30,622 nt of DNA from a virus, in IMG/VR virus record IMGVR_UViG_3300046836_000342, positions 1 to 30,622 of that record; one strand, written 5' to 3'. The translations under genes and the position numbers were made by a program. The notes beneath the pieces were generated by a model. The model saw only the letters and a list, made by a program, of their open reading frames with translations, had not been told where the DNA came from and did no database searches. Below, piece after piece: positions 2,747 through 21,519 of this stretch; positions within the stretch are counted from its first letter, which is position 1; every line of letters begins with the position of its first letter.

Positions 2747-2960
2747 TCTCGTCTCCTTGGTCAAACGTGGTGTCCGATTCCTTTCGTACACGCGTGCCGA
2801 TGTAGTGATAGTCCCCGTTGTCCCACGAACTGACATAGCGGGCAATGCCGTTCCCGAACTGGACATCCAGCGCATCGTATCCTTTGCTCATTTTGGGGGC
2901 GCGGTTCCCGTCCATCGGCCCGCCAACGAACTCCGGATACTCATGCGGGACGTGTGTCAT
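2727..2960 (-). CDS. Small phage protein with FVGGPMDG motif
   Basis: 77 aa. It starts MTHVPHEYPEFVGGPMDGNRAPKM and contains an aromatic-rich tail (WDNGDYHYIGTRVRK). The FVGGPxDG opening recurs in small uncharacterised proteins of many actinophage and proteobacterial phage genomes. Its function is unknown. It overlaps the portal gene stop by 4 nt (ATGA), so it is translationally coupled to the packaging genes. Confidence 0.7.
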   Translation of the reverse strand: MTHVPHEYPEFVGGPMDGNRAPKMSKGYDALDVQFGNGIARYVSSWDNGDYHYIGTRVRKESDTTFDQGDENGDATD

Positions 2961-4546
2961 GCGACAGTTGGCTGCGGCGCCGGCGTGGGTGGTCGCTGCC
3001 GGAGTGCCAACTGTGCCGCCATCTCGTCCGCTTTCTGTGCCGCATCCGCCGCCTTCGCCGCGTCCATCTCTTGGACCAGTTCGTCGATATTCTCGTCCGG
3101 ACTCAACCGTTGCCCATCCTGTAACGCTTCAAGTACCACACGAGCCGGGAGGTTCAACGCGGTCGCCAGTGTTCCCCACGCCGTCATCATGTCAGCCTGC
3201 ATCGACATGTCGTCAAACTCGCGGTTGATCTCGATAGACCCGCCATCGGGCAATCGGAGATAGTTCGCATGAAACTGCATGGCCTTCTCAACGGCGTCCT
3301 GTAGTCCGCGAGCCGTGACCGCCAGCTTCGAGTCCGATGCGCTTTTGTCGATCCGCTTGGCTTGAGCTGTCTCGGCCGTTCGCTTCTGCGGGGCGAGCAT
3401 CGAGAGGCCAAGGACGCCCATGTCTGACTTCATGTCGTCCAGCGAGACCTTCACCTCGTTGAGTGCTTGGCCGGTATGTGACACGTACTTGGCGTCCGCG
3501 CCTAACGGGAGCCAGAGTACGGTGTCAGGTCCTACCACGACCGGTTCCTTGCCACCCGCCGAATTGGATGCGCCGATAATGGCAAGGACCGGGACACACG
3601 TTTTGTGGATCGAGGTCGCCTGGTCACTGGACCGCTGATAGAACGCGATGTTGAGATAGGCCAGGTCGATGAGCGGCGGGTCGGAATCGAACAACGCCCG
3701 ACGCCCGGAGCTCTGCACTTCCGCCAACGGGATCTCGGTCTGGTTTACATACCGGCCTTCGTCGACCAGGACAACTGTCTGCGTGTCGGTAACCTCAAGC
3801 AGCGTAAAGCCAACCATCCCGTTCTCGTTCCACAACACCCGGTAGCGCGTCTGCGTCTTTTCACCAAAGGCGCCATCGGGAACCGAGGTCGTCTCCTTGA
3901 GCACGATCTGGGTGAGAATGAGCCGTCCCCCAACCGTCTGCGTTCGCCAACTGACGATGTTGTCCTTTTTGATGAGCACCCAGTACGGCCGCATCGCCGC
4001 TGGGCCTGTTTCATCAGCAAGCGTCAGGATGCGGCCACCCGTATTCGGATAGTCCACGAGAATCGCACAGTGGCCCGTCTCGATGGCTTCCTGTAGCGCC
4101 TCGTGAATGAACACGTCGCCATGCGTGCCGGCGTTGTCGATATTCTCCCACTGGTCACGGATGGGTTGCGGGACATCGTCACCGAACTCCGGGTCTCGGC
4201 GAAAGACGTAGCCGGTCAGCCCTTCGACAGCACTCCGGAAGGCGTTGAAGAAAACGGTTGAGCGGAGGCGAGCCTGGTAGTTCTGCGGCTCCTCACCTGG
4301 CGCTTGCGGGAGGTACGTGTTCTGCCGAGCTCGTACGCTTTCAGTCCCGCCCCACACGTCGCGACAGATGGTTAACGCGTTCTGCTGCTTCTCAGCGGCC
4401 GGTGAGAGCGTACTGGGGAGGTTTCGCTTCTCGCCAGGAAAACCGGCAATCTGGACACCACCCGGGCGTAACGGACCGTCACCGGGTCGGTTGCCGACAT
4501 TGGCGGGGTCCGTATCAGGGACGTAGGGCAGTTGATAGGTCGCCAT
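2957..4546 (-). CDS. Portal protein (DUF4055 family)
   Basis: 529 aa, usual for the family. Portal proteins form the dodecameric ring at the head vertex through which DNA is packaged and ejected. DUF4055-like features are CRDVWGGTESVRARQNTYLP near residue 60, then LTGYVFRRDPEF and a central beta-rich region. The C-terminal end is helical and coiled-coil-like with an Ala/Gln/Pro-rich tail. The ATG at 4546 is preceded by GAGG about 7 nt upstream. It follows the large terminase gene directly, the canonical terS-terL-portal-head order. Confidence 0.88.
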   Translation of the reverse strand: MATYQLPYVPDTDPANVGNRPGDGPLRPGGVQIAGFPGEKRNLPSTLSPAAEKQQNALTICRDVWGGTESVRARQNTYLPQAPGEEPQNYQARLRSTVFFNAFRSAVEGLTGYVFRRDPEFGDDVPQPIRDQWENIDNAGTHGDVFIHEALQEAIETGHCAILVDYPNTGGRILTLADETGPAAMRPYWVLIKKDNIVSWRTQTVGGRLILTQIVLKETTSVPDGAFGEKTQTRYRVLWNENGMVGFTLLEVTDTQTVVLVDEGRYVNQTEIPLAEVQSSGRRALFDSDPPLIDLAYLNIAFYQRSSDQATSIHKTCVPVLAIIGASNSAGGKEPVVVGPDTVLWLPLGADAKYVSHTGQALNEVKVSLDDMKSDMGVLGLSMLAPQKRTAETAQAKRIDKSASDSKLAVTARGLQDAVEKAMQFHANYLRLPDGGSIEINREFDDMSMQADMMTAWGTLATALNLPARVVLEALQDGQRLSPDENIDELVQEMDAAKAADAAQKADEMAAQLALRQRPPTPAPQPTVA

Positions 4547-4547
4547 G

Positions 4548-5801
4548 CTACATCCTCAGTGTGGAGAAAGTGGCGGCCCTCGTGTGCAGGAGGTTAAACC
4601 GTTGCCAGATGAGATACCCCAACGCATCAGTGATGTGGTCGAGCCCTAAACTCTTGTCCGGCAGGCTCGTTCCGTCCTTGTACGTCATGCCATCCAACCC
4701 ACGAATAAGCGCCTTGGCGTTCGGGTGAACGTGCAGCCGACGCTTGCCGTTCGCGTCCTTCAACATCGTCTGAACAGCATTGATCCGGTCAGGAATCGGG
4801 ATTGCGGACGGATGGACATCCACAATCAATCCATGACTCTGCAAGATTGTGATGTCCGTTGTCCCAGCCACCGCACTCGTCCGCCGCTGGTTCGCTGATG
4901 GGTCAGGGCAGACAATGATCGGACGACCCTTGTAGCGTCTCACGATTTCGGCGGCCACCTCTTCCGTGTTCGAGGTGTGGAGCTCAAGGGCTTCAAGGAC
5001 GTGGCATTCGTCGCCAACCTTTATGGCAACGACGGTCGCCATCGGATTGATGTTGAAATCCTGGCCGACCAGAATCTCACCACCAACGTCCTTGATGTCC
5101 TTGGAGACGTTGAGCAGACGGTCGAAGTTGTCATAGACCCGCCCCGCTAGTGTCTCAAAACTCGCCTCGAACTCCTGGCGAAAGACGCGCGAATCCATGC
5201 TTGATCGTGCCGCCTCAATCTCGTCAGGCGGGACGTTCCCACCTTTCAGCGTCGTGAAACTCCACGACTTCCACTCTTTGTCATCAACCACGCCCTTCAA
5301 GTACAGGTCGTAGGCGTAGTTGTAGCCCATCGGCGTCCCGACAAAGAGAGCTCGCCCCTGCCGATCGGCCAACGCTGGCCTGAGCACTTCCTGCCAGAGC
5401 GTCGGGTCGATCATCGCGAACTCGTCACAGACGACAAAATTGAGGCCGAGGCCGCGGAGGCTGTCCGGGTTATCGGCACCCTTCAATGCGATGCGCGAGC
5501 CATTGCGGAGTTCGAGGCTGAGTTCTGTCTCGTTCGGCGCTTTGGCTAGTTGGCTTCGAGGTACCACCTGCTTCACGGCACGCCACGCGATTTCCTTGGC
5601 CATGCGGTAGGTCGGGGCGACATACCAACAGACCGCGTTCCTCTTCTCGCCGGCCGCTGCTGCGAGTTCTGCCGCGGCGAGGTACGTCTTGCCGAACCGC
5701 CTTCCAGCAACGAGGACGCGAAACCGGTGGTCCGACTCAAAGACATCGGCCTGGGGATCGGTGAACTCGATCCATTTGACGGGCCGAGTCGCAGCAGTCA
5801 T
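4548..5801 (-). CDS. terL: Terminase large subunit
   Basis: 417 aa; ATPase and nuclease that pumps phage DNA into the prohead. The Walker A-type loop is GRRFGKT (residues 33-39) and Walker B is VVCDE (123-127) with the catalytic Glu at 127. The coupling-motif region FVGTPMG is at 153-159. The C-terminal RNase H-like nuclease shows VGQDFNI with D248 and a late acidic pair in LDHITDAL (D388, D392). The length and order fit the Terminase_6-type family. It lies 2 nt after the small-subunit gene. Confidence 0.95.
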   Translation of the reverse strand: MTAATRPVKWIEFTDPQADVFESDHRFRVLVAGRRFGKTYLAAAELAAAAGEKRNAVCWYVAPTYRMAKEIAWRAVKQVVPRSQLAKAPNETELSLELRNGSRIALKGADNPDSLRGLGLNFVVCDEFAMIDPTLWQEVLRPALADRQGRALFVGTPMGYNYAYDLYLKGVVDDKEWKSWSFTTLKGGNVPPDEIEAARSSMDSRVFRQEFEASFETLAGRVYDNFDRLLNVSKDIKDVGGEILVGQDFNINPMATVVAIKVGDECHVLEALELHTSNTEEVAAEIVRRYKGRPIIVCPDPSANQRRTSAVAGTTDITILQSHGLIVDVHPSAIPIPDRINAVQTMLKDANGKRRLHVHPNAKALIRGLDGMTYKDGTSLPDKSLGLDHITDALGYLIWQRFNLLHTRAATFSTLRM

Positions 5802-5803
5802 GG

Positions 5804-6172
5804 CTAGTTGGCTGACCGACGACGGAAGGCTAGCATGTCGATCTCGCCAGAGTGCTCGACGCGTTCGGTATAGAGACCAGCCGCCTTGCCGCGGGAGATG
5901 GCGGCCGTAACGGCTGGTCCGTACTGGCCGGCTTCAATGGCTCCGTCGCGCAGGTCGGCGAGTTCTTTCAGGTGAGTCGCGAGAGTGATTCCCGCTTCCT
6001 CGATAATCGGTGCGCGAAGGTTAGCAATTTCTGTTGCGATACTAGCATTCCCTAGCAATCGCGTTGCTTGAACGCTCGCGCCATTCGGGCTAAAGCCAGC
6101 CCTGATAGCGGCTTGCGTCGCGTTGCCGTCTTTAACGTATTCGACGACGAATCGTTGCTGGCGTTCTGTCAT
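5804..6172 (-). CDS. terS: Terminase small subunit
   Basis: 122 aa. The N-terminal helix-turn-helix has the Terminase_2 pattern: MTERQQRFVVEYVKDGNATQ followed by AAIRAGFSPNGA and a short helix ending LLGNASIATEI. It recognises the packaging site and recruits the large subunit. The ATG overlaps the stop of the 53-aa zinc-ribbon gene by 4 nt, and terL follows. Confidence 0.92.
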   Translation of the reverse strand: MTERQQRFVVEYVKDGNATQAAIRAGFSPNGASVQATRLLGNASIATEIANLRAPIIEEAGITLATHLKELADLRDGAIEAGQYGPAVTAAISRGKAAGLYTERVEHSGEIDMLAFRRRSAN

Positions 6173-6330
6173 GCCCAGGTCATCTCCACCTTGCTTTTAC
6201 AGCGAGGACAGTGGGTTGCGAGTCCCTGACCGTTCCGCTCGCCATCGGTTCGGAGGATACGGACGGTCACTTGGACCTCGCCGGGAATGGCCAAGAGCCA
6301 AGTGCGGCAAGGAAACTCAGTACGCGCCAT
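6169..6330 (-). CDS. Small zinc-knuckle protein upstream of terS
   Basis: 53 aa. It ends CPRCKSKVEMTWA and has another Cys in FPCRTW, suggesting one zinc ribbon or a half-ribbon. The frame is open further upstream to 6477, but a terminator-like hairpin at 6360-6400 lies in that extension, so the ATG at 6330 is preferred even though no clear ribosome site precedes it. It is coupled to terS by ATGA. The function is unknown; Com-like translational regulators of phages look superficially similar. Confidence 0.55.
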   Translation of the reverse strand: MARTEFPCRTWLLAIPGEVQVTVRILRTDGERNGQGLATHCPRCKSKVEMTWA

Positions 6331-6359
6331 GCGGATGCGGCCGGGGCAGCGAACATCGG

Positions 6360-6400
6360 TATAGACAAAGGCCCCCGTGACCGTGAGAGTCGCGAGGGCC
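6360..6400 (-). terminator. Rho-independent-type terminator after the sugar operon
   Basis: On the minus strand GGCCCTCG pairs with CGGGGGCC (one T-G wobble). An inner GAC/GTC pair extends the stem, and a 7-nt loop closes it. TTTGTCTAT follows. It lies between the stop of the last sugar-operon gene (6474) and the start of the packaging genes (6330), so it would separate the two transcription units. The T-run is short and no folding was computed. Confidence 0.6.
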
Positions 6401-6473
6401 GTGAAACGACCGTGAGGATGTGGGTCGGCGGGTTGGGCCGATAGGGAGAATATGGGGGCGGCACGAGGATTGG
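6401..6473. other. Short non-coding gap between sugar and packaging modules
   Basis: Together with the hairpin, the gap from 6331 to 6473 (143 nt) contains no gene I can support. A TATACC box near 6353-6358 on the minus strand, just downstream of the hairpin, could be part of a packaging promoter, but no matching -35 is visible. Confidence 0.4.
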
Positions 6474-6707
6474 TCAACGAGGGGATTCCGGTATTTGAGT
6501 CAGAACAACCTCAGACCACCGATAGCCAAAGACGAACGAGACGATGACTAGTGCAACACTCAGACTGATCCCGACGGCAGGACTGAAGCGCAGCCATATC
6601 CCGATCGCCGTATCCTTTTGCGACGGCTCTCGGTACCTGAAGTAACACCAGTGGCCCCACGGCAGGCGCGCGAAATATGCTGGCTTGCCTTCCCATGTGC
6701 CCTTCAA
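6474..6707 (-). CDS. Small single-span membrane protein, last gene of sugar operon
   Basis: 77 aa. The N-terminal half is aromatic-rich (FARLPWGHWCYFRYREP). It is followed by one predicted transmembrane helix around residues 47-65 (VGISLSVALVIVSFVFGY) and a short polar tail. No family is recognised. Its ATG overlaps the stop of the aminotransferase gene by 4 nt, so it is the eighth and last member of the operon, just before the terminator. A role in anchoring or exporting the sugar product is possible but unsupported. Confidence 0.65.
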   Translation of the reverse strand: MKGTWEGKPAYFARLPWGHWCYFRYREPSQKDTAIGIWLRFSPAVGISLSVALVIVSFVFGYRWSEVVLTQIPESPR

Positions 6708-7738
6708 CTCAGTTCCTCAATGGCGCGTTTGAGGGCTTTGGCGTTCTTCTCGGCTGAGGCGATGCTATTCGTCTGAAACTGGAGGAGTCGCGGCTGGAGC
6801 GATTCGGCAACAGGACAGAGTTTGTACTGTTTGAAGAGTGGCTGAAACGCGGGTTCGTCATACGTGAGTCGCCATGCCGGATAGGGCTGTTCGCCGCCCT
6901 GCCTCACGATCGCATCACTGAGCCGAAGCGCGACGCCCGGAGTGTCGCACACGACGGCGTAGGTCCAGTAGTCGTGGGTCCAACCGTCGGGGACGTGTTG
7001 AGGGACGAGCCAGTCGCAGCCGGCAATGGCTTCACGGTAGAGTTGCGCGGCTTCGCGACGCAGGCGCACTAATTCATCGGGCCATGATCGAGTCCAGCCC
7101 ACACCGCCGACAGCCATGTTGAATAGGTCAAGTCCAGCCGCCGCCGTAATATCGTTCATGCGGTAGTTCCAGCCGAGCGAGTGGTGACGCTCAAAGGTTG
7201 GGCTTTTGATGGCGTCGGGGTCGATGCGGGGTTGGTCAGCTCGCATCCGATACCCGAGGCTCGAGAACTCCCGCGCTTTCGTGGCTAGTTCCTCATCGTT
7301 CGTGACGAGCACGCCGCCTTCGCCGAGTGCGAGAATCTTGGAAGCTTGGAAACTGTAACTGGTGAACTCGGCAAGGATGTTATGCGGCCGCAACGTCTGG
7401 GCCGCGTCGTCTATCGCGCGTCCCGAGAATCCAGACTGGGCGTGCAGACCATAGAGCGATACAGGAATCGTCGGTATCGAATAGCCAGCGCCGCCCATCA
7501 GCCACGTCCGTTCGTCCACATCGCAGAACGCCGGAACCGCCCCAGCATGCAGAACCGCAATCGTGGTCGATGCCATCGTGAGCGGTGGGACGGCTACGCG
7601 GTCTCCCGGCTTCACACCAAGCGCCACAAGAGCCGTATGCAAAGTTGCGGTCCCATTCACTAGCGCGATTGCGTACTTTGCGCCGACATAGGCGGCGAAC
7701 TCGCGCTCGAATGCAGCGACCGCAGAGCCGTTCTTCAT
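6704..7738 (-). CDS. pseC: PLP-dependent sugar aminotransferase (DegT/DnrJ/EryC1/StrS; PseC-like)
   Basis: 344 aa from ATG 7738, which overlaps the previous stop by 4 nt; upstream in-frame codons are rejected for that reason. Fold-type I aminotransferase. NGTATLHTALVALG (28-41) is the PLP-phosphate region, DDAAQ (110-114) gives the Asp that holds the pyridine nitrogen, and SFQASKILALGEGG (129-142) carries the Schiff-base Lys at 134. In the pseudaminic pathway PseC transfers an amino group to C4 of the 4-keto UDP-sugar made by PseB. Substrate and stereochemistry are inferred from the neighbouring pseB-, neuB- and spsF-like genes. Confidence 0.88.
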   Translation of the reverse strand: MKNGSAVAAFEREFAAYVGAKYAIALVNGTATLHTALVALGVKPGDRVAVPPLTMASTTIAVLHAGAVPAFCDVDERTWLMGGAGYSIPTIPVSLYGLHAQSGFSGRAIDDAAQTLRPHNILAEFTSYSFQASKILALGEGGVLVTNDEELATKAREFSSLGYRMRADQPRIDPDAIKSPTFERHHSLGWNYRMNDITAAAGLDLFNMAVGGVGWTRSWPDELVRLRREAAQLYREAIAGCDWLVPQHVPDGWTHDYWTYAVVCDTPGVALRLSDAIVRQGGEQPYPAWRLTYDEPAFQPLFKQYKLCPVAESLQPRLLQFQTNSIASAEKNAKALKRAIEELS

Positions 7739-7932
7739 CCAAGCACCCGCACCCATTCTTCGCCGTACAACTCGACCGCGTACGCACGCGGCCATGCGAG
7801 GATTGTGAAGCAATCATGCGGCGGGACGATCTCCCTCAAAAAACCGTGACAGTGGCACCGGTCGCCGGGGATGGCGAGAAGGCTAAACAGTCGCGCCTTG
7901 AGGGGACTCATGATCTTCTTCTGCTCTGTCAA
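7735..7932 (-). CDS. Small unknown protein inside the sugar operon
   Basis: 65 aa with ATGA overlaps at both ends, strongly suggesting it is translated. The central part contains GDRCHCHGFLREIVPPHDCF, with three Cys and three His that could bind a metal. The C-terminal part is hydrophobic/aromatic (ILAWPRAYAVELYGEEW). No family is recognised. Being between the cytidylyltransferase and the aminotransferase suggests a small accessory or regulator of the pathway, but this is only positional. Confidence 0.65.
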   Translation of the reverse strand: MTEQKKIMSPLKARLFSLLAIPGDRCHCHGFLREIVPPHDCFTILAWPRAYAVELYGEEWVRVLG

Positions 7933-8510
7933 TTCCCCTCCACGAGTAGTCTCGCCGCCCGAAAATCTGCCTGATCGTCGATGGTCCAGTAGCCTTTCGG
8001 CAATCGCGGCACTTTCGGCGCGTCATGTGCACCAAAGAGTGCATACGTGATGTGCTCTCGCTTGTACTTGTCCTGGGTGACCGAGTTCGCCACATCCAAC
8101 ATCTCGAGTGTGAACGCTTCGCCGCCTTGCTCCACCGGCAAGCGTTCACCAGCGACAACGCGCAGACACATCGTCGGCTGTTTGTTCCAATCGTCTGGCG
8201 TCCAACGGACAATCACGGTGTCGGGATGCCAGCGGTACCGATGCGCGCAGAACCAGAAGCGACCGAGAACGTCATGCTCATCGCCATCCCATGCGAATAC
8301 TGTCGCCTTGACCCGCCGCAATTCAGCACCAAGCGGACCAGCATCGTCCTTTGCGGGAATCGCCACCACGACATTTGCCTGACCGAACGCTTCCACCGCC
8401 AACCGCCACGCCCGCGCAATCAACGTCTCGCCGCCAAGTTTGAGAAGCATCTTCTCCTCAAGCCGCGTGCTCTTGAGTCGTGACTGGATGATGCAGAGCG
8501 GCGGAATCAC
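7929..8510 (-). CDS. spsF: CMP-sugar cytidylyltransferase, SpsF type
   Basis: 193 aa from GTG 8510, which forms a GTGA overlap with the previous stop; the frame is open further upstream but only within the preceding gene. The nucleotide-binding signature IIQSRLKSTRLEEKMLLKL (7-25) matches the I-x-(A/S)-R-x-x-S-x-R-L-x-x-K loop of SpsF and related nucleotidyltransferases. FAWDGDEHDVLGRF and the acidic DDW region follow. The family activates 8- or 9-carbon acid sugars as CMP derivatives (PseF/SpsF role). It is shorter than the usual ~230-240 aa, so the C-terminal part is reduced. Confidence 0.82.
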   Translation of the reverse strand: MIPPLCIIQSRLKSTRLEEKMLLKLGGETLIARAWRLAVEAFGQANVVVAIPAKDDAGPLGAELRRVKATVFAWDGDEHDVLGRFWFCAHRYRWHPDTVIVRWTPDDWNKQPTMCLRVVAGERLPVEQGGEAFTLEMLDVANSVTQDKYKREHITYALFGAHDAPKVPRLPKGYWTIDDQADFRAARLLVEGN

Positions 8511-8857
8511 TGGACCGGCACCCCGAACCGCTCCGTCAGATGCAAGTACCGATGGATCTCCATCATCCCGTTCTGCTTCATCAGGTACACCCGCTGCCCG
8601 AATCGGTCCACGTCTTTGCACCACAAACAGTTGTCCCACATGGAATTTGACGGGTCTCGGACATAGGCCGCGCACCAATCGACAGCGAGATGTAAGCCCT
8701 CATCACTATCCGGTACCTGGCCCGCATGCGTGAGTAGGACAGGACTGAGTAAGTACGGCTCAATCTGTGGTGTGTACATGAACAACTCGCCGAGATACCA
8801 GATCTGCGACGTGTTGAACAGAATCGGGCGAGACGTCACGAGTTCGGCGAGCGTCAT
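8507..8857 (-). CDS. Unknown protein in sugar operon
   Basis: 116 aa, coupled by 4-nt overlaps to the DUF218 gene before it and the cytidylyltransferase gene after it. It is rich in aromatic residues (SQIWYLGELFMYTP), has a CLWCKDVDRFG segment and ends HRYLHLTERFGVPVQ. There is no membrane helix and no recognisable acetyltransferase or hydrolase motif. Its position makes it a candidate for one of the pathway steps not otherwise seen (acetyl transfer or UDP release), but nothing in the sequence proves this. Confidence 0.7.
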   Translation of the reverse strand: MTLAELVTSRPILFNTSQIWYLGELFMYTPQIEPYLLSPVLLTHAGQVPDSDEGLHLAVDWCAAYVRDPSNSMWDNCLWCKDVDRFGQRVYLMKQNGMMEIHRYLHLTERFGVPVQ

Positions 8858-9456
8858 ACGACCGGCGCCGGCTGATGTTTTGACAGATACAAAATCCCGT
8901 CCTCGTAACTCGCCACATGGCTAATGGCCTGGTAGAGCGTGATCTTGCTTCGCTCATGCGTTAAGAGTTCGCGACGCGTGGAATCCATCCCCGCTGGCTT
9001 TTCCTCCCACGATGCGGAATGGGCAGGGACAGGGATAATGCGGATTCGCTCTGCGGCCGGCTCCTCGATCAATGCTTGGACAAACGTCAGAAAGGCGCGC
9101 GGTAGGTGATAGGCCGATGCAACGAGAATCAGCTTGGACCATCCGCGATCTAGCGCGAGGTCGATCATGTTGACGGCCTGCTCACGCGTGTTCCTCGAGC
9201 CGCCCTCCATCATCATCTTGTCAGGACTGATGCCGTAGGGCGAGCCGAGTAGGGCGCGATACGAGTGCATGGCGTCGATGAATTGCGGCGGCTCGTGCAG
9301 CCCACCCGAGAGCACAACGAGTGGCGCGAGCCCCATGCGAAAGGCGTGGTAAGCCGTCCGGTATCGGGGCTCGGCATCCTCGCCACACAGGCAGACGATA
9401 GCGTCCGATTTCGCGGGCGGTGTCGTGAACAACATGGCGAGGAAATCGGGGTTCAT
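8854..9456 (-). CDS. DUF218 / YdcF-SanA-ElyC family protein
   Basis: 200 aa. DAIVCLCGEDAEPRY (18-32), LVVLSGG (46-52), GGSRNTREQA (85-94) and LILVASAYHLPRA (109-121) are the characteristic DUF218 blocks. Bacterial members (SanA, ElyC, YdcF) act at the cell envelope or in glycan metabolism, but their chemistry is poorly known. No signal peptide is seen, so it should be cytoplasmic. It sits between the NeuB-like gene and an unknown gene with 4-nt overlaps on both sides, tying it to nonulosonate synthesis. Confidence 0.85.
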   Translation of the reverse strand: MNPDFLAMLFTTPPAKSDAIVCLCGEDAEPRYRTAYHAFRMGLAPLVVLSGGLHEPPQFIDAMHSYRALLGSPYGISPDKMMMEGGSRNTREQAVNMIDLALDRGWSKLILVASAYHLPRAFLTFVQALIEEPAAERIRIIPVPAHSASWEEKPAGMDSTRRELLTHERSKITLYQAISHVASYEDGILYLSKHQPAPVV

Positions 9457-10226
9457 GCCAGCATCGCCTCAACATCACGAACGCGGCGGATCATCTCCCC
9501 AAATTGGACGTCAGTAAGACTCACATTGCTTTCAAGTTCCGATGGCTCGTCCCAGAGCATGAAATGCGCTTCAAGAACTACTGCGCCGCGCGAGGCCGCG
9601 ACAATGCAGGGCTCGATACTCGTCCCGTGGTACGAGAAGCCATCATAATTATTTTCCGTGTCGACGCGGGATAGCTCGAGCGCCGTCTGTGGGTACCCCG
9701 GAGCGCACCAGAGCCACAGACATTCACCATTCTCGTCCAGATTATACCAGCCCTGCGCCGTGCTGATGATCTTCGGCTTGCCCGCGAGCCGCGTCCGCAC
9801 GAGGTCCATGAAGGGGCTATAAGCGTCACTATCAAGCGCCGCGATTTTCCAGACCGGATTGCCGATTGATTCCAACAGATCCATTGACTCAGGGCCGAAC
9901 ACCGATGAGAAAATCGGGAGGCCAATGGACGCCGCATGAGCATAGAGCGGCGCGAACCATTCGCGGGGCGTCATTGCGCGCGTGTAGAGATCACGCATCG
10001 ACATGCCCTGATCGCCCCATCGTGCTGGCGCTGGCCCATCACCGCCGCGCAGAGCCAGCAACTCCTCGACGCCATAGCATTGTAGCTTTGCCGCAGATGC
10101 ACCTGACGCCTTTGCGGCATCAAGTAATCGGACAGCTCGGCCGTAGTCCCCATTGTGCGCGTTTCCAATCTCGGCAATGCACGCGACAGGACATCCGTGG
10201 CCAATCTCGAGAGGGCCGATGTTCAT
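9453..10226 (-). CDS. pseI: NeuB/PseI/SpsE-family nonulosonic acid synthase (short form)
   Basis: 257 aa from ATG 10226 (ATGA overlap with pseB). TIM-barrel synthase that condenses phosphoenolpyruvate with a 6-carbon amino sugar. IAEIGNAHNGD (17-27) is the signature opening; AAKLQCYG (45-52), KIISTAQG (152-159), CAPGYPQ (174-180) and LEAHFML (218-224) align with the barrel strands. Two oddities stand out. The C-terminal SAF/antifreeze-like domain of the usual ~340-aa enzymes is absent, and the usual G-(Y/L)-S-D-H-T motif reads GFSYHGT (196-202). The fold assignment is firm; product identity (pseudaminic, legionaminic or other) is not determined. Confidence 0.87.
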   Translation of the reverse strand: MNIGPLEIGHGCPVACIAEIGNAHNGDYGRAVRLLDAAKASGASAAKLQCYGVEELLALRGGDGPAPARWGDQGMSMRDLYTRAMTPREWFAPLYAHAASIGLPIFSSVFGPESMDLLESIGNPVWKIAALDSDAYSPFMDLVRTRLAGKPKIISTAQGWYNLDENGECLWLWCAPGYPQTALELSRVDTENNYDGFSYHGTSIEPCIVAASRGAVVLEAHFMLWDEPSELESNVSLTDVQFGEMIRRVRDVEAMLA

Positions 10227-11257
10227 GCGACCAGCTCGCGCAACTCGTCGACACTGAGCTGCATTGGGTTCGTATCCGAACGATATGAGAAGTCGGCCGG
10301 CACGGATGGATAACACGGCATGGACGGCGGAGATTCCCACCACGGTCTGGTGCCATTCGCGGTATTCGGCAACCGCCACGTCGCGGATTCGGGCTCGATG
10401 ATGTAGTGCGTCCCGGCGTCGTATGTCGTCCGAGATTCCTCACTCGAGATTAGCGTTTCGTGCATCCGCTCACCCGGCCCTAATCCCGTTTCGACATGGC
10501 CGGGTTCGTACAACCCAGGGCCGACGACGGCGCGGGCAAGATCGAGAACGATGGCACTGCCGACCTTGGGGATGAAGACTTCGCCGCCTTTCATCTCGCG
10601 GAAGGCCAAGAGGACGAGATCGACCGCCTGATCAATCGTCATCCAGAACCGCGTTGCATTCTCGCAACTGATGGTCAGCGGTAAGTTGCGGTCTCGCTGG
10701 CCCTTGAAGATGCCAAGCACCGACCCGCGCGAGCCGAGAACATTGCCATATCTCGTCGCGGACAACTTTGTCGCATGGCCCGCTGCGTACACGTTTGAGG
10801 CAATCCACAGCCGCTCGGCCGTGAACTTGGTCGCACCGTAAAGCGTATGGGCGGCCGGCGCTTTATCAGTCGAGAGAAAGACGGCCTTGTGGACACCGGC
10901 GAGGATTGCAGCACTCGCGACATGGTGCGTCCCAATCACATTTGTGAGGGTCGCCTCCCACGGGTCGGCCTCACAGGCTTCAACCCGCTTCATCGCCGCG
11001 GCATGAACGACCAGGTGGACGCCGTTCATGGCTTGCACGAGTCGGTCTCGGTCCCGAACATCCCCAATGAACCATCGGACGCGGGAATCCGGAAACTCGG
11101 CCTTCATCTGGGATTGCTTGAGCTCATCGCGGGAAAAGACGACGAGACGGCCGACGTCATCGGCTAAGGCTCGACGGACGAAGGCATGGCCAAAACTTCC
11201 CGTGGCCCCGGTACAGAGCACGGAACGACCAGTCAGCGGGCTATCCACGTAGGGCAA
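10223..11257 (-). CDS. pseB: UDP-GlcNAc 4,6-dehydratase, PseB/CapD type
   Basis: 344 aa, SDR-family NAD(P)-dependent dehydratase that opens the pathway by converting UDP-GlcNAc to a 4-keto-6-deoxy sugar. The dinucleotide loop is TGATGSFG (16-23). FSRDELKQ (41-48), GDVRDRDRL, HAAAMKRVEACE (85-96) and STDKA (129-133) are classic for PseB. The YxxxK pair is Y140/K144 in LYGATK. It starts at TTG 11257, supported by GGAGAG about 9-11 nt upstream; there is no better start. First gene of an eight-gene chain in which every junction overlaps by 4 nt. A candidate promoter and operator lie just upstream. Confidence 0.9.
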   Translation of the reverse strand: MPYVDSPLTGRSVLCTGATGSFGHAFVRRALADDVGRLVVFSRDELKQSQMKAEFPDSRVRWFIGDVRDRDRLVQAMNGVHLVVHAAAMKRVEACEADPWEATLTNVIGTHHVASAAILAGVHKAVFLSTDKAPAAHTLYGATKFTAERLWIASNVYAAGHATKLSATRYGNVLGSRGSVLGIFKGQRDRNLPLTISCENATRFWMTIDQAVDLVLLAFREMKGGEVFIPKVGSAIVLDLARAVVGPGLYEPGHVETGLGPGERMHETLISSEESRTTYDAGTHYIIEPESATWRLPNTANGTRPWWESPPSMPCYPSVPADFSYRSDTNPMQLSVDELRELVA

Positions 11258-11300
11258 TCAAGAGGACTCTCCGTCGTGTGCGGGGCGGCGAGACGCGGAC

Positions 11301-11306
11301 AGTATA
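11301..11306 (-). promoter_or_regulatory. Candidate -10 of the sugar-operon promoter
   Basis: TATACT on the minus strand (5 of 6 to TATAAT) in the 87-nt gap between the nuclease stop and the pseB start. The hexamer 17 nt upstream, TAGCGC, is a poor -35, so the promoter would be weak alone. Transcription would start near 11294, leaving a leader of about 37 nt before the TTG start codon. Confidence 0.45.
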
Positions 11307-11326
11307 ACGAGTTACCGAGAATCGCG

Positions 11327-11343
11327 CTAGCGAATATCGCAAG
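11327..11343. promoter_or_regulatory. Candidate operator upstream of pseB (near-copy of the lysogeny operator)
   Basis: The minus strand reads CTTGCGATATTCGCTAG, matching the lysogeny operator at 20454-20470 (CTTGCGACTTTCGCAAG) at 14 of 17 positions and 13 of 14 arm positions. It lies wholly in the intergenic gap, right after the nuclease stop. Its centre (11335) is about -41 from the start implied by the -10 box at 11301-11306, the position used by activators that touch RNA polymerase at the -35 region. Binding is inferred from sequence similarity. Confidence 0.55.
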
Positions 11344-11344
11344 C

Positions 11345-11824
11345 CTAATGTGCGAATGTGCCGCGTGAAACCTCGACGAGGAGCACTCGGAGCGCGTCCA
11401 AGGTTGCCTGTGTCGTCAGCCCATCGGGCGTCGTGCGATACAGCCGCCAGCCCAATTGATTCGCGCGATTGTACTTCTCCATGTCCGCGGCGTATCCCGA
11501 ACCGCGCGTGTGTCGACCGCGCGTCCAGATACCGCCCTCCACCTCGATTGCGATCTTTTGTTCCGGAAACGCAAAGTCGAATGCCCACTTGCGAGGACGG
11601 GCAAAGCGAAACTCGGGAATCGGGCGTGGAAGGCCCACAGCGGCCAGGACGGCCAGAAACAGCGCAGTCGTCGCGTCCTGGGGTTTAGTGAGCTTGGCGG
11701 GGCGCTTCCGGGGCGGGGACGGGGATTGTGGCGCGCCATGCTGGGCCTGAGCCTTGCTTCGTGGCACGCCGAGCCGAACGAGCGCTTCTACCGTCTCGTC
11801 CGGTGTCATGCCGAAGTCGGTCAC
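11345..11824 (-). CDS. PD-(D/E)XK endonuclease-like protein
   Basis: 159 aa. The core is KWAFDFAFPEQKIAIEVEGG (79-98): D83, then E94 and E96 in the I-E-V-E strand, with a following W/G/H-rich segment (GIWTRGRH) and DMEKYNRANQLGWRLYR (114-130). This is the pattern of small phage nucleases related to very-short-patch-repair/DUF559 enzymes and Holliday-junction-type resolvases. The canonical Lys of E-x-K is replaced, as often in this subgroup. The start is GTG 11824 (an ATG lies 5 codons in); neither has a good ribosome site. It is the last gene of the early/replication operon. Confidence 0.75.
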   Translation of the reverse strand: MTDFGMTPDETVEALVRLGVPRSKAQAQHGAPQSPSPPRKRPAKLTKPQDATTALFLAVLAAVGLPRPIPEFRFARPRKWAFDFAFPEQKIAIEVEGGIWTRGRHTRGSGYAADMEKYNRANQLGWRLYRTTPDGLTTQATLDALRVLLVEVSRGTFAH

Positions 11825-13363: not shown

Positions 13364-14130
13364 TCGGACCTCATGGCGGCGAGGCCGCGTTCGTTGAGGA
13401 AGCCGTTCTCGTCAACGAGCGGGTGATTGACCCACTCGGCGAACGTCTGAGCGAAGCGCGTCAGCGAGACGAATCGCGGCTCGGTGCGCTCGAGGTAAAT
13501 CGCCAGGTGCTCGCCGAGCTCGGCGTCCGTGTTGCCGGCGGTGCGCAACGGCGCGAGGGCCTTAGCGGCTTGCCCGGCGACGCCGGCGAACGATCCGGCA
13601 CCGTACTTCGCTTCCCACACCCCGCACGTCGGCGTGAGCCACGTTTCCCGCGAAGCACTCTCGCCCTCGCCGCGCGGTTTGCGGCGAGAAGGTTGTTGCT
13701 CGGTGGTCGTAGGTCGTAGGTCGTAGGTCGTAGGTCCAAGATCGGAGAGTGAGGATTTCCCGAGACTCTCATGAGACTCTCGTGCGTGTCTCATTTTTGG
13801 GGCTCTAGCGGGGCCCGGGAGGACGTACTTCGAAGGGTGCTCTATCCGTTGGTGGCGCTTCCAGTTAGAGACTTGAATGAGGCGCTGGCCGGAGTCCGAG
13901 ACGTAGCGCACGATTCGGCCGATCTCCGCGAGTCTCATGAGACTCTCACGCGATGTGTCCGAAGATTCGGGAAAAACGAAGCCGTCGATGGCTTTTTCGT
14001 TGTCTAAAAGACGGCCCGCGTCGTCGGCGAAACTGAGCAATCCGAGGAAGACCAAACGGTCGATCGGCGCCATCGGCGCGAGCTTCTCGTCGCCCCAAAA
14101 TTCGGGCTTGACGGTGCGGATTCTGGGCAT
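13360..14130 (-). CDS. Phage replication initiator-like protein
   Basis: 256 aa from ATG 14130; the opening MPRIRTVKPEFWGDEKLA is the standard start of a winged-helix phage replication family (MARIRTIKPEFW-type), so upstream in-frame codons are ignored. FLGLLSFADDAGR (28-40) and SNWKRHQRIEHPSK (88-101) complete the DNA-binding domain. A polar linker (about 108-165) joins a C-terminal helical domain (WLTPTCGVWEAKYG onward) expected to load the helicase encoded next. The linker DNA contains a 7-bp tandem repeat and short palindromes, possibly the replication origin. Confidence 0.8.
   Translation of the reverse strand: MPRIRTVKPEFWGDEKLAPMAPIDRLVFLGLLSFADDAGRLLDNEKAIDGFVFPESSDTSRESLMRLAEIGRIVRYVSDSGQRLIQVSNWKRHQRIEHPSKYVLPGPARAPKMRHARESHESLGKSSLSDLGPTTYDLRPTTTEQQPSRRKPRGEGESASRETWLTPTCGVWEAKYGAGSFAGVAGQAAKALAPLRTAGNTDAELGEHLAIYLERTEPRFVSLTRFAQTFAEWVNHPLVDENGFLNERGLAAMRSE
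13706..13736. repeat. 7-bp tandem repeat inside the initiator gene
   Basis: GTCGTAG is repeated 4.4 times on the plus strand. The unit is not a multiple of three, so gain or loss of one copy would shift the frame of the initiator near residue 135. Three units equal 21 bp, which would keep the frame. Confidence 0.9.
13767..13947. repeat. Pair of 15-bp repeats with a 16-bp palindrome (possible origin elements)
   Basis: TCTCATGAGACTCTC occurs at 13767-13781 and 13933-13947, in the same orientation. The second copy lies in a perfect palindrome GAGTCTCATGAGACTC (13930-13945). Both are within the initiator gene, where lambda-type phages keep the iterons bound by their own initiator. The repeats are seen; the origin role is inferred. 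Confidence 0.4.
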
Positions 14131-14315: not shown

Positions 14316-14539
14316 TTCGCGACTCCGGCGCCGACATCAGCAGACCGGTGGACCGGGCTTTCGGCCTGTATCCCTGGCTGTAACGCCCGCGCGGATTTCT
14401 CACTCGAGGCGGGAAAGAGCCGGTTACTAGCCCGTGCGCTAAACGCCCATCTGTGCGCGACTTCTATAGTATGGGCGCGGGACGACGTTGGCCGTCCCTG
14501 TTCCGCCACAAAACCTAATAAGCTACGGTTTCGCGTCAT
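14312..14539 (-). CDS. Possible small protein, overlapping the candidate att region
   Basis: 75 aa. It fits the 4-nt overlap pattern at both ends (ATGA with the integrase stop, GTGA with the next gene), which favours translation. The sequence has no recognisable pattern and an unremarkable, Ser/Ala/Arg-rich composition. The same DNA carries a repeat pair and hairpins that suggest an attachment site, so the frame may be incidental. Confidence 0.35.
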   Translation of the reverse strand: MTRNRSLLGFVAEQGRPTSSRAHTIEVAHRWAFSARASNRLFPASSEKSARALQPGIQAESPVHRSADVGAGVAK

Positions 14540-14570
14540 TCGCTATTTCCTGTATCGCTGGCTGTAACGC
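14365..14570. repeat. 22-bp direct repeat pair beside integrase (candidate attP arms)
   Basis: Bases 14365-14386 and 14549-14570 match at 21 of 22 positions (core GGCTGTAACGC shared). The right copy covers the last codons of the integrase gene. Between them lie inverted repeats CGCCCAT/ATGGGCG (14444-14450 and 14471-14477) and GGGACG/CGTCCC (14479-14484 and 14493-14498). Repeats next to int are typical of attP arm or core sites; the crossover point is not identified. Confidence 0.5.
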
Positions 14571-15225
14571 TGAACGCGCTGGCGAGCTTGGCGACCGCGG
14601 CGCGCTTGTGATCAGGACTGAGGTCCGCGTACACATCCTCGACGACCTTGAGCGAGTCGCCCAATAGCTTCGCGACGGTATACAGGTCGACGCCGCGCAT
14701 GACGGCGTGCGATGCGAACGAATGCCGGAGCGTGTGGTAGACGACGCCCTGCGGATTCTCCCGCCCGTAGATCAAGCCGGCGCCTTCAACGATCTGGATG
14801 AAGTGCTTGCGGAAGGCCAGCTCCTGGAGCGGCTCGCCGTCGTAGACGGGGCTCGGAAACATCCACGTTTCAGAGGCGAAGTCGCGGACGTGCACGCGCG
14901 CGATAGCTCGCAACGGCTCGGCCATCGGAACGAGGCGAATCGCGCGCTTTGTCTTCGGCCGCCAATCCGGCTGCTTCCGGATGTTGATCACGCCGAGCTC
15001 CAGGTCGACGTCGAGCACGGGACGAAGGCGGAGCGTTTCCCCAATGCGTAACCCGGCGAGCAGCCCGCACGCGACGCCGAACAGGTACGGCGCCGGCGTG
15101 CGCGCCATCACGGCGTTCGCCTCTGAGACGGTCAGCACGCGATCTCGGCGATGGGTCTCCCGCACCGTACGATCGGCCTCCACGGGGCTGTGGAGCGGCC
15201 TGGCGGGGCGGTTCCGTTCGCTCAT
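14536..15225 (-). CDS. int: Tyrosine recombinase/integrase, catalytic domain only
   Basis: 229 aa. The catalytic residues visible are R60 (LLAGLRIGE), K91 or K93 (RPKTKR), H164 and R167 (HTLRHSF) and the nucleophile Y199 (VEDVYADLSPDH). The usual LGH/W position reads LGD (D190), so one catalytic residue is altered. Family integrases have 300-400 aa with an N-terminal arm and a core-binding SAM-like domain. Here only about 30 residues precede the catalytic fold, and the ATG at 15225 overlaps the upstream stop by ATGA, so no hidden N-terminus is available. It may work with a reduced domain set, need a partner, or be defective. Confidence 0.85.
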   Translation of the reverse strand: MSERNRPARPLHSPVEADRTVRETHRRDRVLTVSEANAVMARTPAPYLFGVACGLLAGLRIGETLRLRPVLDVDLELGVINIRKQPDWRPKTKRAIRLVPMAEPLRAIARVHVRDFASETWMFPSPVYDGEPLQELAFRKHFIQIVEGAGLIYGRENPQGVVYHTLRHSFASHAVMRGVDLYTVAKLLGDSLKVVEDVYADLSPDHKRAAVAKLASAFSVTASDTGNSE

Positions 15226-16481: not shown

Positions 16482-16876
16482 CGTGGATATTCGGGTTCTG
16501 ATTCGTCATTCTCATGGGCGTCGGCGGGCTGTTCGTCGATGTAGTCAGCGACTTTCTCCCGCGCCTTCCCGAGTAGGATCACGGCGTCAGTCAGACGCAC
16601 GTCAGCGCCTAGCGCCTCGACGAGATCGACCGCGTACTGAATCGCGCTCTCGGCGGGCCACCAGAGATCCGTGCGGACGCGACGCGGAAAGTCGGAGATG
16701 GGAGCGACGGTCTCGGCCTGCTGTGATTCGATCTTCACTCGGACCTCATCGCTCGGCGTAAAGACGTGCGGGCCGACGTGATTGAGCGGCAGCATACAGG
16801 TTCCCGCGGCGACCCCATCGACCCCGATGTCTCCCATTTCCCAACAGTGAAGCGCGACCTTCAGGGGCTCGCTCAT
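16478..16876 (-). CDS. Unknown early protein with Cys/His N-terminus
   Basis: 132 aa. The N-terminal CWEMGD and GTCMLPLNHVGPHVFTP resemble the C-x(n)-C-x-L-x-x-x-H-x-G-x-H motif of small phage zinc-like domains (CxLPxGHxGPH). A helical segment (AIQYAVDLVEALGADVRL) and an acidic tail follow. The downstream gene carries a similar Cys/His block, so they may be paralogues. Confidence 0.6.
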   Translation of the reverse strand: MSEPLKVALHCWEMGDIGVDGVAAGTCMLPLNHVGPHVFTPSDEVRVKIESQQAETVAPISDFPRRVRTDLWWPAESAIQYAVDLVEALGADVRLTDAVILLGKAREKVADYIDEQPADAHENDESEPEYPR

Positions 16877-17226
16877 GGCTGCACACGGCCGAACTGCTTC
16901 TCTAGTTCTCCGTTCCGTTCGGAGAGACGGGAGAGCTCGGCGCGGAGCGATTCGCAGGTGTCGAGTGCGAGGAGAATGTTGGAGCGAATCCCATCGTAAT
17001 AATCACCGACTGGCGTCCCCGACTTCGAGGTGAAATGCGAGACCTGCCAACGCACTTCGGCCACCTCATCAGCGGATAGCACGCGCGATGCGGTTGAGAC
17101 AGAGGACGCGGGACGCGGCGTTGCGTTTGGGATACCAAGGGCGTGCTCGCCATCGTGGCCCTCGTCGCGAATACAGCGATGGCCGGCGAGCGCATGGCCG
17201 CATTGAGATTTGATTCCGGCGCTCAC
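16873..17226 (-). CDS. Unknown early protein with Cys/His block and coiled coil
   Basis: 117 aa from GTG 17226, chosen because it makes a GTGA overlap with the zinc-finger gene. QCGHALAGHRCIRDEGHDGEHAL (about 8-30) is a likely metal-binding knuckle similar to that of the preceding gene in the operon map. The C-terminus is helical (CESLRAELSRLSERNGELEKQF). Function unknown. Confidence 0.6.
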   Translation of the reverse strand: MSAGIKSQCGHALAGHRCIRDEGHDGEHALGIPNATPRPASSVSTASRVLSADEVAEVRWQVSHFTSKSGTPVGDYYDGIRSNILLALDTCESLRAELSRLSERNGELEKQFGRVQP

Positions 17227-17375
17227 GGTTCCCCCTGGATCACGGCGCGACGGCAACGCTTACAATTGCGATACTGGTCTAGCCATCGACGCACGTTGCA
17301 ATGCTGGCACAGATCGAGAATCCGCGCCCACTTCTTTCGGCCGGGACGCCCGGCGTGCTTTCGCATTCTGCTCAT
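17223..17375 (-). CDS. Small zinc-finger protein
   Basis: 50 aa from ATG 17375 (ATGA with the HNH gene). A basic N-terminus (MSRMRKHAGRPGRKKWARIL) leads into two C-x-x-C pairs (LCQHC at 22-26 and CKRC), a compact four-Cys zinc ribbon. Probably a nucleic-acid- or protein-binding early factor. Its last codons share a 16-bp sequence with the end of the upstream HNH gene. Confidence 0.65.
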   Translation of the reverse strand: MSRMRKHAGRPGRKKWARILDLCQHCNVRRWLDQYRNCKRCRRAVIQGEP

Positions 17376-17767
17376 TGGTCCCCCTGGATCACGGAGACGG
17401 CGCCAGACTGGTAGGACAGCCATGCGGCTTCGGTCACCGCCGCCGCCTTTTCTAGATTGATGCCGACGGTAATCGAGAATGTCCGCGCGCCCATGAAATG
17501 CAATTCCTCGTGGCACTCGTGGCAGAGCGGGATGATGAATCGCGCGTCTGCCTTCCGCCCCTTGCCGCCACTCTTGATGTGCGCGTTCTCGGAATTGCCG
17601 ATGCCGTAGGCACACCCCATGCAGGGCAGTGACGCGACCCAATCACACCGCTCAGGCGAGCCGTACGCCCGCTTCCAGTTCGCTGAGTAGCGCCGTGCAT
17701 TCCGCCGTTTGACGGGCTTCCGCGGCGACTTCTCACGCTTGGCTGGTTTCGGCACGGGATGGATCAC
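17372..17767 (-). CDS. HNH-type nuclease-like protein
   Basis: 131 aa. A very basic start (about 30 residues, many Lys/Arg) is followed by LPCMGCAYG (C49, C52), ENAHIKSGGKGRKAD (H63) and IPLCHECHEELH (C82, C85, H86, H90). This matches the zinc-stabilised HNH fold of phage recombination nucleases of the DUF968/Ref-like group. It probably cuts DNA in recombination or packaging. ATGA overlaps on both sides. Confidence 0.75.
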   Translation of the reverse strand: MIHPVPKPAKREKSPRKPVKRRNARRYSANWKRAYGSPERCDWVASLPCMGCAYGIGNSENAHIKSGGKGRKADARFIIPLCHECHEELHFMGARTFSITVGINLEKAAAVTEAAWLSYQSGAVSVIQGDQ

Positions 17768-18159
17768 GCGGCACCAGGGGTCAGGCGTGCTTCGGCCGCG
17801 AGTAGCATGGCATCGCTCTGGCGCATCCGAAGCCGCCAGTCGATCTCGTTCAGCTTCTCCTCAAGCTCAACCCACTCGGCGCGATCCCGGACGTCCTTCG
17901 TGAGTGCGGCGATGTACTCAGCGTCAGCTCGCGTCTCGGCATCGACCATCGGCTCGGTCACCTTCTTGCCTTCGACCGTCAGACGGGCGCGAACGGCGAT
18001 GGCGACACGCGCCTCATCGAGCTTGAACATCCGTTCGCCCATGTAGCCGTTGCCGCCGTAGAGCGCGCGGTACGGTGCGACGCGTTCGGTGATTTCCGCG
18101 CGACGGGCGAGCAGTTCGTCGGACGATGGTAGGGCGTCGATGATCGTGAAGTCAGGCAT
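17764..18159 (-). CDS. Unknown helical early protein
   Basis: 131 aa from ATG 18159, which has GGAG 7 nt upstream; the frame extends further but into the upstream gene. After MPDFTIIDALPSSDELLARR come long helices with alternating charge (AEYIAALTKDVRDRAEWVEL). There is no membrane helix or known motif. It lies right after the possible annealing protein, so a recombination accessory role is possible. Confidence 0.65.
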   Translation of the reverse strand: MPDFTIIDALPSSDELLARRAEITERVAPYRALYGGNGYMGERMFKLDEARVAIAVRARLTVEGKKVTEPMVDAETRADAEYIAALTKDVRDRAEWVELEEKLNEIDWRLRMRQSDAMLLAAEARLTPGAA

Positions 18160-18892
18160 CTTCGGTCTCCACATTGTCCCACTCGCTGTCGTCCGACTCG
18201 CTCGGATCAAGGGCGCGATTCGCCAGCACGTTGCCGATCGCTTCCGCAAGGTCCGTCTTGCCCTTCTCGCGGCACCACTTCAGCGCCGACTCTAGGTCCT
18301 CGGTGACGATCTCGCCGAGCTTCGTGCCCTTATTCCGGCCGAATGGCATCACCTTCTCAGCATCGTTCTTCGGCGATCCGTTGCGAGACTCGCCGCCGTA
18401 GGACTTTCGGCTGCCGATTTCTTCGGCCGAGACTTCGCCCATGGCGATCAGGTTGGACACGGCGCGATTCGAGGCGCGCGTCATGGCCGTGGCGATCGCG
18501 TCGGCAATCGTGATGACTCGCCGGCCGGTCGCCTCGTCCGAGCTACACGCGGCCACGTCCGCCCACGACTGGCCCCACGGTGCGACGGCTCGCGCTCGGG
18601 CATAGGCGATGAATCCGTCAGGCGTTGACTCGATACGGCTATCGGCCAGTTCGCACTCGACGCTGATCCCGAAGTGACGGGCCAGCTTCCGCCATGCGCT
18701 TTTCTTCTTGAACTCCCGGTTTCCGTCCTTCTGCACATCGTTCGGCCCGATGAGCGCGTGGCACGCCTTGTCGTAGGCCGCGGCGAGCTGCTGTTGCTGG
18801 CTGAGCGATTCGCCGCTCGTAATGGACGCGAGATAGCTCGCCATGTCGGCGCGCACGACCGCAGTCCCTGGTTCCCGAAGATCAGTCGTCAT
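18152..18892 (-). CDS. Possible ssDNA-annealing recombination protein with ExoX-like C-terminal motif
   Basis: 246 aa. The region FKKKSAWRKLARHFGISVE (61-79), then ARAVAPWGQSWADVAAC and AIATAMTRASNRAVSNLIAMGEVSAEE (133-158) is typical of phage proteins thought to relate to Rad52/Erf-type annealing proteins. Near the C-terminus MPFGRNKGTKLGEI (182-195) matches the short ExoX-like C-terminal domain. An acidic tail (SESDDSEWDNVETEDA), as in ssDNA-binding proteins, ends it. The annealing role is likely but not proven by motif alone. Confidence 0.6.
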   Translation of the reverse strand: MTTDLREPGTAVVRADMASYLASITSGESLSQQQQLAAAYDKACHALIGPNDVQKDGNREFKKKSAWRKLARHFGISVECELADSRIESTPDGFIAYARARAVAPWGQSWADVAACSSDEATGRRVITIADAIATAMTRASNRAVSNLIAMGEVSAEEIGSRKSYGGESRNGSPKNDAEKVMPFGRNKGTKLGEIVTEDLESALKWCREKGKTDLAEAIGNVLANRALDPSESDDSEWDNVETEDA

Positions 18893-19206
18893 GCTGCCGC
18901 GTCCTGTTTCGTTTCGAGGGATGGCAAAGCACCAACTGCGAGCTCGCCGTATGACTCACGGACCCGCTGTGCTAAGGCCCGCATCGTGTCGATGTCTGCT
19001 GCTGTCACTGGACCACGCGGCTTCGACCCTTCGACGCGCGTGGCTTCCGTGCCGATCTTCGCGAATGGGTCAGTCTTTGAGTAGCTCGGCACTGTCACGA
19101 ACCGCTCGCCGTTCCAGACCGAGTGAAAACAGACGTTATTCTCTTGGCCGGCCCCGAAGCGAACGAAGCGTTCGTAGATGCCTTCGCGTGGTTCGCCGCG
19201 GGTCAT
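18889..19206 (-). CDS. Unknown early protein
   Basis: 105 aa: REGIYERFVRFGAGQENNVC near the start, a beta-rich middle (HSVWNGERFVTVPSYSKT) and a helical tail. Coupled by ATGA to the annealing-like protein gene downstream and to another small gene upstream. Family not recognised. Confidence 0.6.
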   Translation of the reverse strand: MTRGEPREGIYERFVRFGAGQENNVCFHSVWNGERFVTVPSYSKTDPFAKIGTEATRVEGSKPRGPVTAADIDTMRALAQRVRESYGELAVGALPSLETKQDAAA

Positions 19207-19469
19207 CGGAGATCCCCGGTGAGTTCCAGCCCGTAGGTATCGCCCTTCGCATCCACCACGCCCTTCAACGCGACCTGGAAGCCAAGGGTGCGATACTCCT
19301 CTGCGACCTTGACGATTTCACCCACGGTCCAGGACGGGGCGACGAAGTAGAGATGCAACTGATGCTGTTCCATCAGGACTTGCCGTTCGCCTCGGAGATG
19401 CTCGGCGAGGATACGCGCGTCGCGCTTGTTCTCGGCCTCAACCACGCCGAGCGGGAGAGTGTGATTCAT
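19203..19469 (-). CDS. Unknown early protein
   Basis: 88 aa from ATG 19469 (ATGA with the zinc-ribbon gene; Arg-rich upstream extension rejected). It opens MNHTLPLGVVEAENKRDARI and has an alternating beta/alpha pattern (LHLYFVAPSWTVGEIVKVAE), with no metal or membrane signature. Confidence 0.6.
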   Translation of the reverse strand: MNHTLPLGVVEAENKRDARILAEHLRGERQVLMEQHQLHLYFVAPSWTVGEIVKVAEEYRTLGFQVALKGVVDAKGDTYGLELTGDLR

Positions 19470-19675
19470 CTGGCCAAGTGCCCCCGGCCGCTTTCTCGCA
19501 TGGCGTCGCGGTAGGAGTCGCTGTCCTCGATCCCAGGGCCTTCCTCGGCTGCTGAATCGTCCGTCCGGTCCATGTCCTGGGCGCACTCGAGACACAGGTC
19601 CGAGCCTTTCGCTTGCGGATTGCGCGGCGTGCCGACTTGGACACCGCACCGTGGACACATCTTGTGGTATGGCAT
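19466..19675 (-). CDS. Zinc-ribbon protein
   Basis: 69 aa. MPYHKMCPRCGVQVGTPRNP and DLCLECAQDMD supply two C-x-x-C knuckles; the rest is acidic and probably disordered. GAAGGA lies about 5 nt before the ATG. A hairpin-forming inverted repeat (19696-19730) sits between this gene and the upstream membrane-protein gene. Confidence 0.68.
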   Translation of the reverse strand: MPYHKMCPRCGVQVGTPRNPQAKGSDLCLECAQDMDRTDDSAAEEGPGIEDSDSYRDAMRESGRGHLAR

Positions 19676-19695
19676 TATCCTTCCCTCGTTGGTTG

Positions 19696-19730
19696 CGAAG
19701 CGCCGCTTCCTTTGCCGGGGTGGCGCTTCG
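19696..19730. repeat. Perfect 9-bp inverted repeat
   Basis: CGAAGCGCC (19696-19704) and GGCGCTTCG (19722-19730) are separated by 17 nt in the 60-nt gap between two early genes. The transcript would form a GC-rich hairpin. There is no T-run on the minus strand, so it is more likely an RNA-processing, attenuation or protein-binding site than a simple terminator. Confidence 0.7.
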
Positions 19731-19735
19731 TGTGT

Positions 19736-19966: not shown

Positions 19967-19968
19967 GG

Positions 19969-21517: not shown

Positions 21518-21519
21518 CG

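Follow-up and report, generated by a model that had tools for sequence, protein, structure and literature searches.

An operator-like palindrome of a putative phage switch recurs before a nonulosonate cassette and packaging genes

The window, that is the whole 30,622-nucleotide stretch of IMG/VR virus record IMGVR_UViG_3300046836_000342, carries two nearly identical palindromes: O1, between two divergent genes of switch type, and O2, ahead of a leftward run of sugar, packaging and head genes. Judged by its sequence and placement, O2 is probably an operator of the phage's own switch, whether it represses or activates. Our preferred reading, held tentatively, is that O2 acts as a second switch operator that would silence the cassette, packaging and head genes in the prophage. 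If real, the link joins the lysogeny switch, through one operator sequence, to genes that start with synthesis of a sialic-acid-like sugar, and makes it testable when the phage makes this sugar, and whether the virion or the host of the prophage receives it.

20453-20471, no strand assigned: O1, a perfect 8-3-8 palindrome, GCTTGCGA-AAG-TCGCAAGC, in the divergent switch region
11326-11344, minus strand: O2, the second operator-like site, GCTTGCGA-TAT-TCGCTAGC on the minus strand and GCTAGCGA-ATA-TCGCAAGC on the shown strand

We scored the likeness of the two sites with both 7-bp and 8-bp arms. For the 17-bp version (11327-11343 against 20454-20470), the initial annotation had reported 14 of 17 matching positions, 13 of 14 in the 7-bp arms. 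Both counts hold, and with 8-bp arms the agreement is even somewhat stronger, at 15 of 16 arm bases. Its estimate of about 0.01 chance matches was also right: across Markov orders 0-4, the window is expected to hold 0.005-0.016 matches at 13/14 or better and 0.0006-0.0019 at 15/16 or better, each figure being for one motif that was chosen after reading. Because the window contains seven perfect palindromes with arms of at least 8 and a spacer of at most 10, a correction of up to about sevenfold applies, giving an expectation of 0.004-0.013. O2 is the one further near-identical operator-like site outside the switch region (15/16 arms); the next best place in the window matches only 12 of 16 arm bases, and other arm spacings give nothing at 13/14 or better. 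The half-site GCTTGCGA occurs six times in the window against 2.4 expected, which is no excess, since three of the six are parts of the two sites themselves.

An empirical control drew on 120 other viral loci of at least 9 kb (1.68 Mb, 483 such palindromes). In two cases, one of them AT-rich low complexity, a palindrome had a further copy with no more than one mismatch. Scaled by the square of the length, this amounts to about 0.08 palindrome pairs of any such kind in 30 kb, a weak control in that its loci average 14 kb, were in many cases fetched with the O1/O2 motif and are neither length-matched nor random. A second palindrome pair in the window lies inside a replication gene and is probably unrelated to O1 and O2; such pairs are thus not always operators. 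We rejected the idea of a widespread viral site: in a collection that may lack near-identical records, no other viral contig has the exact sequence of O2, and only IMGVR_UViG_3300047089_000124 (G001) has that of O1. A degenerate motif fared no better, returning at least 118 scattered stretches, and among the matches listed only that of G001 was recognised as related. No Rfam family matched. In the gene after the helicase, we noticed a GGTCGTA tandem repeat (4.6 copies, 13705-13736) and two near-identical palindromes, GAGTCTCATGAGACTC and GACTCTCATGAGACTC, 166 bp apart (13764-13779 and 13930-13945). Repeat and palindromes may mark a replication origin; L024, a viral contig that carries a related gene, lacks the palindrome core.

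At O1, the following features define the putative switch:

20190-20414, minus strand: Cro-like protein of 74 amino acids, heading the leftward early gene string
20511-20834, plus strand: presumed repressor of 107 amino acids, HTH_31-like, below the Pfam cut-off
20448-20476, minus strand: leftward promoter-like match TTGACG-17-CATACT, 9 of 12 positions

O1 sits in the 96-bp gap between the leftward 74-amino-acid gene and the rightward HTH gene. The spacer of the promoter-like match (20454-20470) is exactly the 17-bp core of O1, so that the site appears well placed for repression of an early promoter. This is the sole minus-strand promoter match within 10.9-21.0 kb; both strands of that region hold two matches against 1.4 in shuffles, a count that by itself is not significant, and the match gains credibility from its place between divergent genes. 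Divergent HTH genes with a candidate operator over the early promoter have, as far as sequence can tell, the makeup of a temperate-phage switch, and a predicted PF00589 integrase is encoded at 14536-15225. The HTH assignments of both switch genes are weak. The Cro-like protein has no Pfam hit; its model (pLDDT 81) is most similar in fold to the 434 repressor DNA-binding domain, ClgR and 434 Cro, at E about 1. For the presumed repressor the model is unreliable (pLDDT 56) and gives no meaningful matches, and searches of viral, phage and genome collections found no relative except G001's own copy. We regard the two proteins as equal candidates for binding the sites. The leader of the Cro-like gene also contains a second inverted repeat, GCTCACTGTG...CACGGTGAGC (20419-20448), predicted to form a strong hairpin.

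The second site is found in an 87-bp gap, one of six gaps longer than 20 bp on the leftward strand in our gene list. It directly follows the TAG that closes the 11345-11824 gene and leaves 68 bp to the start of pseB.

11301-11306, minus strand: TATACT, a -10-like box with an implied start near 11294 and no usable -35

Relative to this inferred start, the centre of O2 (11335) falls at -41, and the best -35 hexamer at 15-19 bp spacing from TATACT matches only two of six bases. The geometry described in the initial annotation, with a centre near -41, a TATACT box and a poor -35, is therefore confirmed for the inferred start and corresponds to that of a class II activator site (near -41, poor -35, good -10). 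Geometry alone does not decide the sign of the effect. A site at -41 also covers the -35 region, and repression could equally result. A weaker alternative promoter, with GATATT inside O2 and GGCACA upstream, would place O2 on a -10, implying repression.

Behind O2, the minus strand encodes a nonulosonate cassette that runs into packaging and head genes:

10223-11257, minus strand: PseB-like UDP-sugar 4,6-dehydratase, the first gene after O2
9453-10379, minus strand: NeuB/PseI-like nonulosonate synthase domain, by family match
8854-9456, minus strand: DUF218 protein, a cassette member
8507-8857, minus strand: cassette gene with no Pfam hit, conserved in relatives
7929-8678, minus strand: CMP-sugar (CTP_transf_3) cytidylyltransferase
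6704-7813, minus strand: PseC/LegC-like aminotransferase
6477-6449, minus strand: promoter-like match TTGACC-17-CATATT, between cassette and terS
6389-6372, minus strand: weak terminator-like hairpin, between cassette and terS
2957-6172, minus strand: terS, terL and portal, in overlapping or near-contiguous genes after the cassette
213-1454, minus strand: MptE-like (PF01973) gene, among the head genes

Families and gene order fit the pseudaminic-acid pathway, with all matches below the NCBIfam equivalog cut-offs and PseF recognised only as CTP_transf_3; the product could instead be another nonulosonate. Among the cassette genes scanned, none matched the PseG hydrolase or the PseH acetyltransferase. 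The NeuB-like proteins of the cassette are short, about one NeuB domain in length. After the cassette, the same strand continues with two small genes, terS, terL, portal, minor head and the MptE-like gene, whose starts and stops mostly overlap. The MptE-like gene has homologues at 52-53% in three related contigs (L017/L038, L031 and L036), and a domain related to PF01973 occurs in Maf-type nonulosonate transferases. The conserved cassette beside terminase and portal suggests, together with the Maf-like gene that several contigs have among their head genes, that these phages encode a system for nonulosonate glycosylation.

The target of O2 had been described as a sugar operon. The sugar genes do come first after O2, but terS, terL, portal and head genes follow at short distance on the same strand. 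Because the cassette adjoins packaging, portal or head genes in most of the relatives too, this description is probably too narrow, and O2 may control late genes as well. The cassette and the packaging and head genes may share one transcript. The matches at 6477-6449 and 6389-6372 leave separate cassette and terS transcripts possible. A scan of positions 1-11500 gave one promoter-like match against 3.5 in shuffles and three terminator-like matches against 8.2, the hairpin at 6389-6372 being the single terminator-like match on the minus strand. Since both classes are rarer than in shuffles, the function of either element is doubtful. In the same region, a contig from another sample (L006) is 99% identical over terS-terL-portal and cleanly lacks the small 6474-6707 gene (window positions 6480-6707).

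Aligning two PseB proteins led to ten related viral contigs (L030-L039, some from shared samples, L038 being the same contig as L017) that carry all or most of the cassette, with its gene order kept. Next to it, seven of the ten (L030, L031, L033, L034, L036, L038 and L039) have packaging, portal or head genes, which went undetected within the fetched stretch of L032, L035 and L037. O2 was not found before the cassette in any of the ten, several of which are short. Neither does any palindrome before the cassette recur elsewhere in its contig, again among contigs of which several are short and may lack the switch region. Upstream of pseB the relatives vary. L031 and L036 have no gap there at all, and L017 has TTGCGA-18-TATAAT (by eye). 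L039 carries TTGACA-18-TATTCT, so the cassette as such does not lack a -35. L032-L035 share a palindrome, GCCAAAAT-N4-ATTTTGGC, with 0-2 arm mismatches about 100 bp before pseB, its centre at a fixed 47.5 bp from a TATAGA box. This hints that palindrome-controlled promoters, with differing sequences, may recur before the cassette.

Positions 16858-30622 of the window (13,765 bp), switch included, are 100% identical to part of G001. Elsewhere the two records have little in common beyond one 230-bp patch (98.7%) and a handful of 24-36-base matches. Such identity points to a very recent exchange between phages with different terminases. We rejected a chimeric contig: L188, an independent contig, matches 16692-16880 and 16915-17216 in the window's order and spans both sides of 16858, so the junction looks natural. 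The whole 36.5-kb record of G001 contains no second site at 12/14 or better. An identical switch thus occurs without a second site and does not need one, which weakens the functional claim: either recombination produced G001 and cost it the link, or it produced the window. In the latter case, the exchange being recent, the likeness of O2 to O1 could hardly have arisen by co-evolution with the present switch.

How would one sequence act at both places? In the mechanism we propose, the HTH protein or proteins that bind O1 would also recognise O2. Bound to O1, inside the -35/-10 spacer of the leftward early promoter, they would block early transcription; bound to O2, over the -35 region before the cassette, they would keep the cassette, packaging and head genes silent in the prophage. 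O2 would then be a dispersed second point of repression. Silence of these genes in the prophage would meet an economical need, because they are near-contiguous here and neighbours in most relatives. The near-complete agreement of the arms, the O1 core that fills a promoter spacer and the rare gap that holds O2 all favour O2 as a switch operator. Repression seems unnecessary, on the other hand, because the promoter is already weak without a -35.

The likelihoods that we attach to this and the following readings are judgements, not computed values. The initial annotation had held that the CI-like 20511-20834 protein activates from -41 in lysogens, with sugar made and early genes off. We consider this unlikely, even though the -41 centre, the TATACT box and the 2/6 best -35 suit it and the L039 promoter argues that the missing -35 is no trait of the cassette. 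On a single transcript, terS, terL and portal would also be expressed in lysogens; the terminator-like and promoter-like matches before terS would allow expression of the cassette alone, but their rarity relative to shuffles makes them weak. It is likewise doubtful that one switch protein represses the early promoter and, through an almost identical operator at -41, directly activates the nonulosonate operon along with the packaging and head genes, which, if true, would tie a sugar coat of the virion or host surface to the lysogeny decision. Activation in lysogens is no more likely than repression, or than lytic-phase activation by the Cro-like protein. Cro-type proteins usually repress only, and the resemblance in fold between the 20190-20414 protein and the 434 repressor and Cro is weak (E about 1); it is therefore rather unlikely that this protein, made early in the lytic cycle, activates the cassette and late genes at O2 while limiting its own promoter at O1. 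This reading shares the -41 geometry, would have the packaging genes expressed in the right phase, and has a precedent in GIL01 gp6, a late-promoter timer acting from a palindrome at -43.5 (PMC6182141).

Other explanations take O2 out of the switch. That it is an unrelated imperfect palindrome would agree with its lack of conservation in relatives, its absence from G001, the choice of the motif after reading and the other, probably unrelated, palindrome pair of the window; the corrected expectation of 0.004-0.013 and the position in a rare intergenic gap make such a coincidence improbable. A different regulator, from the host or encoded elsewhere in the phage, might bind both sites, an idea favoured by the scarcity of relatives of the presumed repressor in the collections. 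The location of O1 between two divergent switch-type genes speaks against it, and we think it quite improbable. Most improbable of all is an RNA hairpin that would serve the 11345-11824 gene as a weak terminator or as a site of processing. O2 begins right after that gene's stop and folds at -8.6 kcal/mol, but there is no U tract, the z-score is -1.3, and the likeness to O1 would be left unexplained. We rejected an intrinsic terminator at O2 for the missing U tract.

Precedents exist both for dispersed operators and for late-promoter activators that belong to repressor families. A search of the open-access literature, preprints excluded, found no paper on a phage nonulosonate cassette of this kind, nor on one ahead of packaging genes with an operator link, which is weak evidence of novelty. 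In lambda, a repressor site near -42 lets CI activate PRM; the distance resembles that at O2, but the lambda site is part of the switch region and acts on the repressor gene, whereas O2 lies outside. Phage P1 C1 and phiC31 each use one repressor at several operators across the genome, also outside early promoters, with more sites than in the window and with different protein families. Cluster A mycobacteriophage stoperators likewise spread immunity repressor sites beyond the switch region, but these are numerous, asymmetric and stop elongation within transcribed regions, whereas the window has two palindromic sites only, the one extra copy being at a promoter (PMC6550527, PMC9283540). The promoter layout is like that of GIL01, in which gp6, a truncated LexA homologue of the small repressor-family type, activates the late promoter P3 by way of a palindrome that overlaps the -35 and has its centre at -43.5 (PMC6182141). 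At P3, gp6 and the lysogeny repressor LexA-gp7 each have a site with a sequence of its own (PMC6182141), whereas in the window nearly the same operator-like palindrome stands at both the putative early switch and a second, predicted promoter.
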